A stretch of 64,000 nt of DNA from Castor canadensis. Lineage: Eukaryota; Chordata; Mammalia; Rodentia; Castoridae. Below, piece after piece: positions 4,628 through 62,795 of this stretch (positions are counted from its first letter, which is position 1; each line of letters starts with the position of its first letter). The notes below the pieces were generated by a model that saw only the letters and a list, made by a program, of their open reading frames with translations, was not told the DNA's origin and searched no databases. The DNA lies in NCBI RefSeq assembly GCF_047511655.1, contig NC_133389.1, forward strand, positions 38,547,295 through 38,611,294, in the 5' to 3' direction. The position numbers and the translations under genes are program-made.

Positions 4628-4710
4628 TCACAGTTGTAGCTCGGAGGTGCCGACCAGGCCCAGGGCTCTGGCTTCTTCTGGAGTTAGGCCACTCTTCAGG
4701 GTTCTTCGCA
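4628..4710 (-). CDS. FHOD3: FHOD3 last exon L, coding part with stop codon
   Basis: These 83 coding bases start after acceptor CTGCAG, complete the split Leu and give RRTLKSGLTPEEARALGLVG followed by TSELQL and a TGA stop at 4628-4630. This matches the FHOD3 C terminus. The RRTL threonine is the third of the clustered Rho-kinase-type sites, so the regulatory tail is split by the 11 kb intron. A longer open frame of 137 codons overlaps this exon in another frame and is not used. Confidence 0.95.
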
Positions 4711-15802: not shown

Positions 15803-15964
15803 GAGATTTGCGGTTGGCTCGGGATCGCTTCCTCTCCCGTGGCACCACTCGCTGACTGGGCACTTGGGTGGCTGACTTGACAATGCGGTCCATGATCTCA
15901 TCAGCTGCATCGTCTGTGACATTAGGTGAGTCATCGGTTCCCATAGTCCATGAACTAGTGGATC
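15803..15964 (-). CDS. FHOD3: FHOD3 exon K: DAD autoinhibitory segment
   Basis: This exon of 162 bases completes the split Gly, adds 53 codons and ends one base into a Leu codon at donor gtgagt. It encodes STSSWTMGTDDSPNVTDDAA, DEIMDRIVKSATQVPSQRV, then the basic VPRERKRSRANRKS. The acidic-then-hydrophobic DEIMDRIV core is the diaphanous autoregulatory domain, which in the resting protein binds the N-terminal DID. The basic stretch after it carries R/K-x-S sites (RSRANRKS) that Rho kinase is known to phosphorylate in FHOD proteins to release inhibition. Confidence 0.95.
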
Positions 15965-21867: not shown

Positions 21868-22042
21868 CTCGACTTGCTCTGCTGCGAGTGCGGACGCCCA
21901 GCACAGGGGTGGCATCCTCCACAGCAGGGGATGAGGTTTTCAGCACAGCCTTCATGTTCTCGTGTTCAGCTGCATCCTCAGCATAGCTCAGACCTTGCAG
22001 CTGGCTCGGTGGTGCTGGAGAACTGCCAGAGAATTTGCCAGA
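21868..22042 (-). CDS. FHOD3: FHOD3 exon J: linker between FH2 and DAD
   Basis: This exon of 175 bases starts in phase 0 (acceptor TGCAG after a T-rich tract) and ends one base into a Gly codon at donor gtaact. It encodes SGKFSGSSPAPPSQLQGLSY, AEDAAEHENMKAVLKTSSPA and VEDATPVLGVRTRSRASR. The segment is rich in Ser, Pro and Ala and is probably a flexible linker between the FH2 dimer and the DAD. It can join either the microexon or exon H directly. A few residues differ from the human protein as I recall it. Confidence 0.94.
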
Positions 22043-23109: not shown

Positions 23110-23226
23110 TTAGTTTGTTTTATTGAGACAGAGTCTTGCTATATAGTCCAGGCTGACCTGGAACATTCGATCTCCTGCCTCAGCCTCCTGAGTGCTGGGA
23201 TTACAGATGAGCACTACTATGACAGA
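23110..23226 (-). mobile_element. B1-type SINE
   Basis: Reversed B1: GAGACAGAGTCTTGCTATAT, AGTCCAGGCTGACCTGGAAC, TGAGTGCTGGGATTACAGAT. Confidence 0.88.
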
Positions 23227-23454
23227 GTAAATATAGGTATTCTAGAATCCAGTTCTTACAACTGAATTGCAAAAGGCTCAGAGAGGAGTCTGGAAGGGAA
23301 ACCAATTATCTACTTTTCCAACAGAAGGGAGAGATCTGCTGAGCTGGCCACTACTGATTAGCCCAGACTCAGCTTACTCTTCACTCCCTGCCACACACAG
23401 CAACAAGAACGCATCCAATGGTTAGCGATCACACAAAAACAACCAGAAAATGTC

Positions 23455-23460
23455 CATGCA
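23455..23460 (-). promoter_or_regulatory. TGCATG motif downstream of the microexon (candidate RBFOX site)
   Basis: On the minus strand the hexamer TGCATG lies about 115 bases after the microexon's donor. RBFOX proteins bind UGCAUG, and sites downstream of an alternative exon usually promote its inclusion in muscle, heart and brain. A given hexamer is expected by chance about once per 4 kb, so its position is suggestive only. Confidence 0.4.
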
Positions 23461-23574: not shown

Positions 23575-23598
23575 CTCGACTTCATCCTCGTCATCAGT
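23575..23598 (-). CDS. FHOD3: FHOD3 microexon I: T(D/E)5XE motif (muscle-type)
   Basis: The sequence between an acceptor ending TGGTAG and a donor gtatga is 24 bases, phase 0 at both ends, and reads TDDEDEVE. This fits T-(D/E)5-X-E exactly. Muscle isoforms of FHOD3 are known to gain such a motif by alternative splicing just after FH2; phosphorylation of its Thr by casein kinase 2 directs the protein to myofibrils. The upstream intron end is rich in C and T (repeats of CTGTCC). The exon lies where the published insertion does, between MITD and SGKF. It is too short for gene finders. Whether it is used in this animal cannot be told from DNA alone. Confidence 0.85.
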
Positions 23599-26500
23599 CT
23601 ACCAGACAGGACAGGGCAGGACAGTATGGAAAAGACAGAATGATTCTTAGAAGGCACAGAAGTCAGCACAGATGAGATTATCTTGTCACAACACAATCCC
23701 AAAAGAGAAATTGGCCACCACAACCAGGGCACACCCTCTCGAATTGAGAGCTTTCACACCTCACTCTCCTATCCTTCTCCTGATACTTGCTCTGTGAGCT
23801 CCAGTTCCAGCCCTGACCAGTGGCAGGAGGGACTTGAAAGACTCCAGGGGCTGCCAATAGGATCAATAATCAGCTTACCTGGCTTCCTGACCACTACCGA
23901 CCCCCCTCCTTGACAGATAGCTGGGCATATCTTGCTGGGCCAACTACCATCTGCTGGCCATCAGGGCCATAGTAAGTGGACCAGCCTTCATTTACCTGGC
24001 TCTGCCCATCTGTTGTGCTGTTGTCTCCACTCATCTTGAGGGCAGACCCCCCTCCTTGCCCAGTCTACTGGACTTGAACTATAGTCCAAGGAAGCCAGAG
24101 GTAAAGGGTCTCACCCAGGAGTCCCACTGCTCTCCACTGTGTAGTCCTGGGATTCTCACAGCCCATTTGGATTACGATGACAGGAGAAAGGGCCAGAGCT
24201 GCTTGGAGTTTCCTTGTCTATTATCACTATTAGTTTAGAACCACTTTGGGACAGAAAGATGAGGAATGAGTTCCTAACTGAGCTTTGCCTGGATGAACTC
24301 TGGATTATGGGAAACTAAGCCTGGTGCTTGGCCAGGAGAAGCTGTCACACTTCAGAGCTGATACAGAGCTGGCTCAATAAAAGGCAGTTTTCAGAGTTTA
24401 CTCCAGGAGCCTCTCATCTCAGCTTAATTGCTACCACTTCACTCTCATTTAATCTAGCATCTATATTAAAAGTTACTACAAGGTCTCTAAAACCTCTGCT
24501 AGTTCCAATGTTCAGAGCTCCATGGTTCTAAACCTATTGTGTGGCTTTGACTTCAGTTGTGTATGTATCATTTTTCTAACCAGATTATGACATACTTAGG
24601 ATATGAGTTTGTCTTTCATTATACTCACATCTTCCTTGGTGTCCACTGCAATGTTGAGCACACAAGAGTCCTTACTAATTGAGAGTTGGGGAAATCTGAA
24701 GCTGTTTTGCTTTGATGACAATATCCTACTATTCCAGCAGATGGCAGTCGATCTACACAAATGTCACTTGGATCTCAAAAAAACGGACCAGGTTGAGAGT
24801 AGACCCTGATATCTGTACTGTCCAGATTGTAACGGGAATTTAAATATTTTTTAATCAAACTCTAGAAACACATACCTCTACTTATAACTGGGAAACCAAA
24901 TGTTCTCAGAGAAGGACAGAATTTAAAAATTAGCTCTGTTTAAAAAAACTCAAGAATTTGGCAAGAAATTTTGATGTGTTTTCATAACTATAAGCATGTT
25001 GGGCCTGTGTTTTTTGCCCTACAATGTGTCTCCTCTCCACAAAAGTAAGTTATCCCCTTAACAAATTTTAAAAATAACATTTTGGAATGAAATGTAGGCC
25101 GTAGTTTGCCCAAGTGGATTCAATTTGCTTCCTGCATCCTCCAGGAGGCTAAAGATCCTGTTGAAGCCAGATTTCAGAAGACAACAGACTCTCAGCAGAT
25201 GACACTGGCATTCGGAATCACCAGGGGCTGTAGAAAAGGCTCCTTCTGGAGAAGAGAGGCCTGGTGCTCTCTAAAAGTCCAGAAAATTCCAAGGGGGTGG
25301 ATGCAAAGAGGTCTATGGCTCTCCTTAGAATTGCCTTAAAAGTACAACAAAACCTAAGTCAATGCATCTGGATCTTCATGTGAAGTCAGCCCCCTCAGGA
25401 ATGTGAACTCTTAGCAGTAACCACATTTCCTCTGTTTTGTCTATAGCATGAACATATCTCTGGCCACAGAAGGCAGCCTCTCACCATGAGGTCTTCTTAA
25501 TGGATTTTCTTTCTCCCCAAGGAAACCTGCCTAACTTGAGTTCAACTGAGGCTAAAACCCCTGGGATGAGGCACTCCCTATGGCTTAATCCTTGACTCAT
25601 TCCACTCCTGCTATCACAGGGAGCCTATCTATTGCTCAAATTCAGGCATAGGTGGGAGAAGATCATTGGCACCAATCCAAACAATGAAAAAAATAAAGTC
25701 ACACTGAAGAGGGCTACAACAGATTCCAATATGATCTGTTAGTACCAAAGAAGATGGCTTTATTCTTCTTGAGTCTACTCAAGTGAGAATAATTGGTGAG
25801 GAAGAGAGAATTCCCAGAAAGTTTCTTCCTTTTGCCTGGAATTGAACTTTTACCTTAGTAGCAATGGATAAGGTCTATGAGAAGAAAATCTGGCTTCCTT
25901 GGTTCATAAAGCCACACCAGAAAGACAAACCCGCACTGGGTACTTTTGGCATCCTTTCACTCTCCACTTACTGAGTGTGTCCCGTCTGCACACCCACTGC
26001 GCTGAGGCCTGTGTAGGCTCAGGGGTGACATGGTAGAGATGAAGAATCCAGGATCAGGGAGACATCTAAGTGTCCAGGGGCACCTCAAGGTGTTATAGGG
26101 AAACTTCTGCTAGTTCTCTTCCCACCGCGACATTCTGTGACTCCAGGGACTATGAAAAGCCCATCAAATTATGTCTTGAAGCAATCACATCAGTCTCTCT
26201 ATTCATATGCCCCAATGGATAGTCCAGGTCACTGGCTGGTTATATAACATTGTTATTATATGATAATTAAAATCCTGAATCAATTCCTAATCAATACACT
26301 CGTCTTCCTATAAGTGGCATTTCCTTTGACATTTTTCTTCTCTTCAACTTTACCATGCACTTAAATGACATTAGCACCATTACACACCAACATGGGCAAT
26401 GTGTTCCTCCTCCAGTCACAAAATCTTAATTTTCTATGCCATAGGTCCTTGTTTCTTACATAGCAGATTCCCACAGAAATGGTAGAGGAACAGTTTGATA

Positions 26501-26643: not shown

Positions 26644-26836
26644 ATCGGTGATCATCTTCCCTCTGGTCTTATTCCTCTCTCTGTGGTTGGCCCGCTTCTG
26701 TTTCTGCTGCAAAACTCTTTCCCTGGTGGTACGATACTCTAGTGCAAATTCACTGATGATCCTGCAGAACTTGTTTATATTCACTTCCCGAATTGCATAA
26801 GGTGGGTGACCCATAAAGAGCAAGAAGGAGTGAAAT
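26644..26836 (-). CDS. FHOD3: FHOD3 exon H: end of FH2 and basic helix
   Basis: This exon of 193 bases supplies the last base of the split Arg, then 64 codons, ending in phase 0 at donor gtaagt (acceptor TGCAG). It encodes [40 protein letters not shown], and a strongly basic helix [20 protein letters not shown] followed by MITD. The first part closes the FH2 domain; the basic helix resembles the tail many formins carry after FH2. Because the exon ends in phase 0, the 24-base microexon that follows can be included or skipped without changing the frame. Confidence 0.95.
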
Positions 26837-31856: not shown

Positions 31857-32047
31857 CTGTTAATTATTCTTCTATGCACAATCTTCAAAATTATAATTCG
31901 TTCTGCACAGTCTTTTAGAAACTCTGACATCCGTTGCTTTAAAACTGGTTTCATTTCATGTTTTGCAATAGCCTTGAGGTGATCCCATGAAGCTTTGCAT
32001 CTTCTCTCCATCTGACATAAATTATCCTGAAGTTGATCAAAGTCAAC
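31857..32047 (-). CDS. FHOD3: FHOD3 exon G: FH2 domain, post region
   Basis: This exon of 191 bases starts in phase 0 after TTCAG with a good pyrimidine tract and ends inside an Arg codon at donor gtaagt. It encodes VDFDQLQDNLCQMERRCKAS, WDHLKAIAKHEMKPVLKQRM and SEFLKDCAERIIILKIVHRR, ending IINR. This is the helical C-terminal half of FH2, which includes the post region that receives the lasso of the partner subunit. The final Arg is AG from this exon and A from the next. Confidence 0.95.
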
Positions 32048-35055: not shown

Positions 35056-35217
35056 CTTGGCTGACCTGGTGATGGCTCCGATCTCTGAGTACAGATCAGA
35101 GCTGTCTGGAAAGTTTTCCACCACCATGGTGCACACATGGTGGAGAAGAGACTGCTTGTGCACTGTGTCTTTGACTTCTGGAACCTTCTCGAGGTAGCTT
35201 AACTCAAACGCTTTGGC
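35056..35217 (-). CDS. FHOD3: FHOD3 exon F: FH2 domain
   Basis: This exon of 162 bases is 54 codons, phase 0 at both ends (acceptor AACAG, donor gtacgt). It encodes [38 protein letters not shown] and [16 protein letters not shown]. It continues the FH2 helical bundle directly after the GNFLNGTN motif, and the LxxL-rich helices and the LLHHVC segment are typical of formins. Longer open frames cross this exon in other frames, but only this frame continues the protein on both sides. Confidence 0.95.
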
Positions 35218-35937: not shown

Positions 35938-36057
35938 ATTAGTTCCATTTAGAAAGTTTCCAATGGCTAGGAGGGTAGACAGGATATAGCCCAGGGTTTT
36001 ATTGTTTTCCAACTGGTCTATTCCTTCCTTCAGGTCCAAAAGTGGTTCTGCCACTTC
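35938..36057 (-). CDS. FHOD3: FHOD3 exon E: FH2 GNFLN motif
   Basis: This exon of 120 bases is 40 codons, phase 0 at both ends (donor gtaagt). It encodes [20 protein letters not shown], then [20 protein letters not shown]. The GNFLNG motif is one of the most conserved parts of every FH2 domain, in the helical region that contacts actin. The acceptor is GAAAG preceded by a run of eight T, less pyrimidine-rich near the junction than its neighbours, but the frame and the known protein sequence fix the start. The next intron downstream is only 720 bases, the shortest in the window. Confidence 0.94.
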
Positions 36058-38044: not shown

Positions 38045-38227
38045 CTTTTCTGTGGTTTCATAGTCCATTTTAAACGCCCAGAGGTGGAGCCGAGCCGAAA
38101 GTTCGCTGATGGAGGAGAGTATGAGGAGGAATTGCTCTGCACTGCCCAAGGGCACTTCAGGGTTGGCCAGTTGAGCTTCCTGGATTTTCTGCTTCTCCTC
38201 TTCGGTGGGAATCATGGTTAGAATTTT
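38045..38227 (-). CDS. FHOD3: FHOD3 exon D: FH2 domain core
   Basis: This exon of 183 bases is 61 codons, phase 0 at both ends (acceptor TCCAG, donor gtaaga). It encodes [19 protein letters not shown], then [16 protein letters not shown] and [20 protein letters not shown], ending YETTEK. This is the helical FH2 core in which the [10 protein letters not shown] motif is typical of the family. From memory human FHOD3 has Asp and Thr at two positions that are Glu and Ile here; both changes are mild. No frameshift or stop is seen. Confidence 0.95.
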
Positions 38228-46772: not shown

Positions 46773-46931
46773 CTCAATTCCTTCTTTGTTTAAGGCATAT
46801 TCATCAAAATTCAAAATAGCTATCTTAATTGTCCTTGGAGGGGGCAGCACCGTCAGACCAATATTGATGGCATTGCTCCTCTTGGAATCTAGAACGATGA
46901 TCTCCTGCCTTTTTCCATCTGCAGCAGTTTT
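46773..46931 (-). CDS. FHOD3: FHOD3 exon C: FH2 domain, actin-contact segment
   Basis: This exon of 159 bases is exactly 53 codons, phase 0 at both ends (acceptor TCCAG, donor gtaaaa). It encodes [19 protein letters not shown], then [20 protein letters not shown] and [14 protein letters not shown]. The NIGLTVL stretch is where other formins carry the conserved FH2 isoleucine needed to bind actin (placed by recall, not by alignment). The Ile is present, so the domain looks active. An in-frame read-through of the donor would add only a short tail before a stop. Flanking introns are 11.6 kb and 8.5 kb, so this is an isolated exon among repeats. Confidence 0.95.
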
Positions 46932-58550: not shown

Positions 58551-59437
58551 CTTTGTGACAGACATTTCTTTGGATTTAGATTCAAACAGGTGCTCCAGTC
58601 TGGAAGTGTCCACCTTAATGGGTTCCAGTTTTGACCACAGGAATTCTCTACAGCGGCGGTTGTTCTTACAAGGCCACTCAAAGGGCCGGACTTCATTCCA
58701 GAAAAGACGGATGGTCTTCTTTTTCTTAGTGAATGCGGGCTGACCCCTGGGTACCTGGGACCACCCTAAGCCCTGAGGAGCGTTGCACATCGGAGGAGGA
58801 GGAGCCAATAAATTACCGGGGACTGGAGGGGGAGGCACGCTGTCCAACAGGGGTGGAGGAGGTGGGGGCGGCAAACCCAGAAAGGTAGGTGGGGGTGGGG
58901 GAGGGGGCCCAGGGGCCTCCCTGTGACCCAAGTCCACGTCCAGGACATCAATGTCATCCTCCTCCCCCAGATCAGTGAAATCCATGTCTTGGATTCTGAG
59001 CTCCCTTGGATTAGCCATGAGCTGGTCCCAGATATAATCAGACTCAGTCTTCAGCTGTGTAGGTGTTTCTGAGACCTTGTCATCGGACCCCTCATCGGGA
59101 GAGATGGAACCTCTCCCCAGGTCCCCGCTGTTGAATTTCTCAGCAAATGCTTTCACGCTGCCCCGGTTGTCCAAACAGCCCACACCCACCCTCCTGACAC
59201 TCTCCTCTGGGGCTTGAGAGTTGGCCTGCAGCGTGGATATCCTGGTGGCAAGGCTGGCCACCGCCTCTGCCTCCTGCTCCATCCTCCCAGTCTCGTCCTC
59301 ACTCCTGCCCTTCTCCTCATCATCTGTGGACTTTCTGTTATGGGCATACAGCATGTCCAGCATGAACCGTTTGTTGGTGAGGATGTCGCCACACTGTCCA
59401 TTTAAGCCTGCATCTTGAATGCCTGTGGACCACAATC
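58551..59437 (-). CDS. FHOD3: FHOD3 exon B: linker end, FH1 and start of FH2
   Basis: This exon of 887 bases is the largest visible (acceptor TTCAG, donor gtaggg). It encodes the split Gly followed by 295 codons starting LWSTGIQDAG. Landmarks are GDILTNKRFMLDMLYAHNR, the GSVKAFAEKFNSGDLGRGS block, and the very acidic MDFTDLGEEDDIDVLDVD. The FH1 domain at 58791-58915 has runs of seven, seven, four and four prolines, the expected binding sites for profilin-actin. FH2 opens with KKKKTIRLFWNEVRP, whose Trp belongs to the lasso that holds the FH2 dimer together, followed by REFLWSKLEPIKVD. The open frame reads 18 codons past the donor, but the next exon restores the known FH2 sequence from VTK to KTAADG, so the splice is firm. 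Confidence 0.95.
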
Positions 59438-62522: not shown

Positions 62523-62795
62523 CAGTCACCCTGTCCTTAGCGAGCTTGTCCTCTTTCTCCTCCCTCTCCAACGTGCTGCTGGAGGATGAGATGCTGGAGG
62601 CAGAGCAGTTGTCTCTCTCATTCACCTCCTCGTTCTGCCTCTCTTTTTCACTGAGGGAAGCTCTGTCTTCTGGTTCTGGCTCCAGTGTCCGATCCTCTTC
62701 CCTCTCTGCTCCTCCTGGGGCCAAGGCTAGGTCCTGGCTGGCTTCATCAGCAACCTGCTCGGCCTCTGGTTCAGGCTTAGGATCCCCAGAACTCA
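62523..62795 (-). CDS. FHOD3: FHOD3 exon A: acidic/serine-rich linker before FH1
   Basis: This exon of 273 bases starts after an acceptor ending CTAG and ends at donor gtaaat. Its first two bases finish a codon begun upstream and its last base begins a Gly codon completed in the next exon. It encodes SSGDPKPEPEAEQ, a Glu/Asp-rich stretch, then ASLSEKERQNEEVNERDNC and a serine run leading to TLEREEKEDKL. These match the FHOD3 linker between the DID/coiled-coil half and FH1. The segment is low complexity and probably disordered. The Glu-rich part seems shorter than in human as I remember it, which is normal variation in such tracts. The acceptor choice is less certain than the donor because the flanking bases could also read as coding. 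Confidence 0.88.

Follow-up and report, generated by a model that had tools for sequence, protein, structure and literature searches.

Known systems

The closest described system is the mouse Fhod3 gene, which comprises 28 exons and whose exon 25 encodes an eight-residue T(D/E)5XE motif near the end of the FH2 domain (PMC3324543). The description of this exon in heart and skeletal muscle is credited there to Iskratsch et al. 2010. According to Table 1 of the same paper, exon 25 was present in 10/10 adult and 9/10 embryonic clones from heart and in 10/10 adult and 11/12 embryonic clones from skeletal muscle, with 0/10 clones from embryonic brain and 0/15 from embryonic kidney. Concerning function, a review describes CK2 phosphorylation of two threonines two residues apart, which blocks p62/SQSTM1 binding and degradation (PMC10192571), and CK2 phosphorylation is considered likely to prevent aggregates that are recruited to autophagosomes (PMC3324543). 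Since variants of FHOD3 cause hypertrophic cardiomyopathy (PMC12263155), a muscle-specific exon of this gene is also of medical interest. Here we analyze the corresponding locus of the beaver, Castor canadensis, in a window of 64,000 nucleotides, by which we mean the whole stretch of DNA under study.

Gene structure and anatomy of the microexon

The flanking exons were located by tblastn of an FHOD3 C-terminus against the window, and their borders were set at exact GT-AG dinucleotides. The resulting features, in the order in which the gene is read, are the following:

62523..62795, minus strand: FHOD3 exon before the FH1 exon (SSGDPKPEP...DRVTG; peptide found in P0001 and P0002)
58551..59437, minus strand: FHOD3 exon carrying the proline runs of FH1 and the beginning of FH2 (tblastn and splicing)
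46773..46931, minus strand: FHOD3 FH2 exon (tblastn and splicing)
38045..38227, minus strand: FHOD3 FH2 exon (tblastn and splicing)
35938..36057, minus strand: FHOD3 FH2 exon (tblastn and splicing)
35056..35217, minus strand: FHOD3 FH2 exon (tblastn and splicing)
31857..32047, minus strand: FHOD3 FH2 exon (tblastn and splicing)
26644..26836, minus strand: upstream FHOD3 exon, ending ...KTRGKMITD, donor gtaagt (tblastn and splicing)
23599..23600, minus strand: AG acceptor of the microexon, with a pyrimidine-rich tract (ctgtcttttccatactgtcctgccctgtcctgtctggtag) before it
23575..23598, minus strand: microexon in phase 0 encoding TDDEDEVE, orthologous to exon 25 of mouse Fhod3 (mouse exons numbered as in PMC3324543)
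23573..23574, minus strand: microexon donor GT (GAG/gtatga)
21868..22042, minus strand: downstream FHOD3 exon, starting SGKFSGSSPAPP (tblastn and splicing)
15803..15964, minus strand: FHOD3 tail exon (tblastn and splicing), which from the FHOD3 domain layout we take to be the DAD region
4628..4710, minus strand: last coding FHOD3 exon, ...GTSELQL then stop (tblastn and splicing)

The 11 exons that lie between 59437 and the stop codon at 4628 can be joined into an open product of 778 residues, in which the Pfam FH2 domain (PF02181) covers residues 234-601 with an E value of 2.1e-95. The insert encoded by the microexon corresponds to residues 632-639, hence 31 residues beyond the Pfam FH2 end and outside the core. 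A sequence search of solved structures returned 18 matches, all of them other formins (mDia1, INF2, DAAM1, FMNL3, Bni1, Cdc12) and none named FHOD, so that the insert is not placeable on a solved FHOD structure.

The microexon itself is read as 24 bases at 23598-23575, on the minus strand and in phase 0, with the translation TDDEDEVE. The sense strand around it is ctgtcctgtctggtag/ACTGATGACGAGGATGAAGTCGAG/gtatga, with ctgtctggtag on the acceptor side. It is flanked by introns of 3045 bases upstream and 1532 bases downstream. The upstream exon ends ATG ATC ACC GAT/gtaagt and the 5' border of the downstream exon is ttttgcag/TCT GGC AAA, which yields MITD-TDDEDEVE-SGKF in frame. At the DNA level inclusion gives ATCACCGAT-ACTGATGACGAGGATGAAGTCGAG-TCTGGC and skipping gives ATCACCGAT-TCTGGC, and since both junctions of the microexon are in phase 0 the frame is kept in either case. 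The first-pass annotation had proposed a phase 0 exon of 24 bases between an acceptor and a donor, joined to MITD and SGKF and encoding the T(D/E)5XE motif of FHOD3. All of these points are borne out by the sequence and by the in-frame splicing of the neighbouring exons, to which the minus strand, unstated at that time, can be added; TDDEDEVE fits the motif and lies at the same junction as mouse exon 25.

Presence in the beaver gene models

The protein search employed an 868-residue query derived from the window, of which residues 560-868 were scored, and the best 120 of 3588 matches were considered; candidates spanned about 477-1519 residues, longer isoforms being outside its scope. The top two among these 120, both with 100% identity, are the Castor canadensis FHOD3 isoforms X9 (P0001) and X7 (P0002). 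Each contains 778/778 residues of the assembled product, insert included, and each carries KMITDTDDEDEVESGKF. Taken by itself, this protein match points to beaver, or to a very close relative such as Castor fiber, as the origin of the DNA. Together with the Pfam FH2 domain, this establishes the identity of the gene as FHOD3. The first-pass annotation had also suspected that the muscle isoform might be absent from the gene models of this species, exons this short being easily missed; this worry fails because X7 and X9 hold the full product with the insert, and a missing annotation is ruled out.

These models also bear on a more trivial reading of the locus, namely that the 24 bases are no exon but a chance open stretch flanked by splice-like dinucleotides. 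Short exons are indeed easily imagined within introns. However, T[DE]5.E occurs a single time across the six frames of the window, at the microexon, and first-order Markov simulations of the window (n=60, both strands) gave a mean of 0.0 matches. Moreover, the eight residues lie at the identical junction in the beaver models, and the motif is found in 120/120 of the mammalian proteins listed (best 120 of 3588). The chance reading is refuted.

Conservation across vertebrates

The pattern MIT.T[DE]5.E is present in all 120 proteins listed, which by name are placental mammals, and the eight-residue insert occurs in nine variants among them; it should be noted that these best 120 of 3588 were ranked by a query that carries the motif, so the list favours the insert and cannot give the rate of models that lack it. 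For shorter proteins, a 211-residue query was used, and the best 120 of 269 matches were considered. In this second list the motif, with either Thr or Ser as acceptor and also where the upstream part is not joined to it, appears in 6/120 (P0121, P0124, P0125, P0126, P0129 and P0131), which makes 126/240 over both lists. Two of the six are rodents, Neotoma (P0121) and Dipodomys (P0129), and a third is the rattlesnake Crotalus tigris (P0131), whose insert, from a partial gene model, reads TDEEDDIE. The remaining three are fish whose acceptor residue is Ser: the insert reads SEDDDDSE in Liparis tanakae (P0124), and SDDEEERE in both Ilyodon furcidens (P0125) and Austrofundulus limnaeus (P0126). 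The number of fish and snake examples is small, and they derive from partial gene models. In the kangaroo-rat (P0129) and rattlesnake (P0131) proteins an unrelated sequence replaces MITD before the insert, the upstream exon being apparently misjoined.

In other FHOD3-like proteins of the second list (P0122 of Characodon, P0123 of Acipenser, and P0133) MITD or MITE is joined directly to SGKF. Such direct joins, as in P0122 and P0123, are as expected from a skipped or unannotated exon. Many of the remaining proteins are genomic intron read-through, FHOD1 or arthropod sequences.

Because the insert is present in the rattlesnake and in three fish proteins, it probably predates the tetrapod-teleost split, as judged from these sequences. 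A broader proposal is that it constitutes an ancient phospho-switch of bony vertebrates operated by splicing, in which inclusion would make CK2 sites of both the threonine of the constitutive exon and the insert's own Thr or Ser, the acceptor having switched between Thr (mammals and snake) and Ser (teleosts) with the five acids and the last Glu kept. To this proposal we give even chances.

Muscle splicing and candidate regulators

Two regulators have been connected with the splicing of this gene, as loss of RBM24 and loss of QKI each change Fhod3 splicing in mouse heart, with the exon left unnamed in the relevant passages of both papers (PMC6538757, PMC10202634), and we therefore assign no regulator to the microexon. 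In human heart, FHOD3 exon 26, which may or may not be the 24-base microexon, shifts between embryonic and fetal stages (PMC12925949). We scanned 300 bases on each side of the beaver microexon for a list of splicing motifs, which yielded one positional candidate:

23455..23460, minus strand: TGCATG, a word of RBFOX type, in the downstream intron at 115 bases from the microexon; 1 seen against 0.07 expected per 300 bases

This signal is weak and may be a chance occurrence. Words of the GTGTG/GTGTT type number three upstream and three downstream, the expectation being 0.81 per 300 bases, which is also weak, and YGCY is found five times on each side against 3.24 expected. ACTAAY has no occurrence within 300 bases on either side. 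The intron downstream of the microexon also contains, at window positions 23120-23230, a stretch that resembles B1, a 7SL-derived SINE.

Predicted CK2 sites and the probable role of the insert

CK2 recognizes the consensus S/T-X-X-D/E. In the beaver product this consensus is found twice, as T-D-D-E within the insert and as T-D-T-D across the junction, both being predicted sites read from the sequence. The second depends on splicing: the MITD threonine is followed by an acid at +3 (T-D-T-D) with the microexon and by none (T-D-S-G) without it. The second CK2 threonine hence seems to lie in the constitutive MITD exon (26644-26655, the insert side being 23590-23598) and to become a site only upon inclusion. 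Human FHOD3 (P0029) has a single threonine in its insert; the pair of threonines two residues apart consists of T1474, in MITD, and T1476, in the insert, in the 1622-residue numbering. The review cited above places both CK2 sites inside the insert, as T1476 and T1478 (PMC10192571), and thus differs from our count by two in numbering and also in placement, since one site falls in MITD here.

We consider it very likely that the beaver microexon is the alternatively spliced striated-muscle exon of FHOD3, i.e. mouse exon 25, whose inclusion provides CK2 sites and whose phosphorylation keeps FHOD3 soluble instead of serving as a sarcomere address. The exon, its splice dinucleotides, its phase, its position in the gene and its presence in the models were determined here; CK2 phosphorylation, like the muscle-specific inclusion seen in mouse, is taken from the literature, from which a splice-controlled CK2 site affecting FHOD3 stability emerges as the likeliest role. 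Mechanistically, inclusion would place TDDEDEVE between MITD and SGKF, just past the FH2 core, and would give rise to CK2-type sites at two threonines, that of the insert and, through the acid at +3, that of MITD. The effect of phosphorylation may then be to maintain FHOD3 in solution and spare it the p62/autophagosome route, and not to direct it to the sarcomere.

The chief rival of this role is that the insert mainly tunes the actin activity of FH2, an acidic patch by the FH2 end lowering nucleation, with stability as a secondary effect. In keeping with it, the insert sits 31 residues beyond the Pfam FH2 end, and in bulk assays (eLife 2025) the slopes of actin assembly were 0.42 for the human form without the insert vs 0.32 for the form with it, FHOD3S-CT being about 30% more potent than FHOD3L-CT, from which it differs in that half only by the absence of the eight residues (PMC12263155). 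However, this 2025 difference is modest, and in mouse Kan-o 2012 reports that neither localisation nor actin assembly, be it in vivo or in vitro, requires the insert (PMC3324543). The insert may thus affect FH2 activity, but as its main role this appears rather unlikely, and stability is still preferred.

The first-pass annotation had instead read the motif as a CK2 site that targets FHOD3 to myofibrils. This is the part of its interpretation that is disputed: gene, exon, phase, flanking peptides and motif stood, and the absence from gene models did not. Aggregation of T(D/E)5XE-deficient FHOD3 in rat cardiomyocytes (Iskratsch 2010, as related in PMC3324543) would agree with a placing signal. 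However, FHOD3 without exon 25 showed normal sarcomere localisation in cardiomyocytes and in transgenic mice, exons 11 and 12 being the essential ones (PMC3324543), and the exon-25-less transgene has already largely refuted the myofibril-signal reading in mouse. We hold this reading to be improbable. Overall, we take stability as the main effect, actin activity as its chief rival and myofibril targeting as the weakest of the three.

Comparison with known systems

The paralog FHOD1 has MITETEKFSG at the equivalent junction of its FH2 tail, and inspection by eye of the FHOD1-like sequences among the second-search proteins (best 120 of 269; e.g. P0139 and P0144, so named there) showed no insert. 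The teleost FHOD3 inserts (P0124-P0126) share with beaver the length of eight residues, the acceptor-(D/E)5-X-E pattern and the region, and differ by Ser for Thr; in addition, P0125 and P0126 have four extra residues before the insert (VNAP or MNTP) and MIM or LIM for MIT. The insert of human FHOD3L (UniProt isoform 4 in PMC12263155) lies at the same junction as in beaver and reads TDEEEEVE in P0029, i.e. with two D/E exchanges inside the acidic run. Closest is mouse Fhod3 exon 25 (PMC3324543), with the same junction and the same eight-residue length: the mouse protein P0116 reads TDDEDEAE, with Ala (GCT) at the free X position vs Val (GTC) in beaver, which amounts to two base changes, and the published mouse primer S7 covers 18 exon bases, 16/18 of them identical to the beaver window. 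The GCT/GTC and Ala/Val differences exclude mouse as the origin of the window. What is added here is modest, namely that the annotation worry is removed, that the exon is recognized in snake and fish sequences, and that the second CK2 threonine is placed, by counting, in the constitutive exon. The feature itself is real, correctly read and ordinary, and is already known, being described in mouse and human and included in the beaver models.
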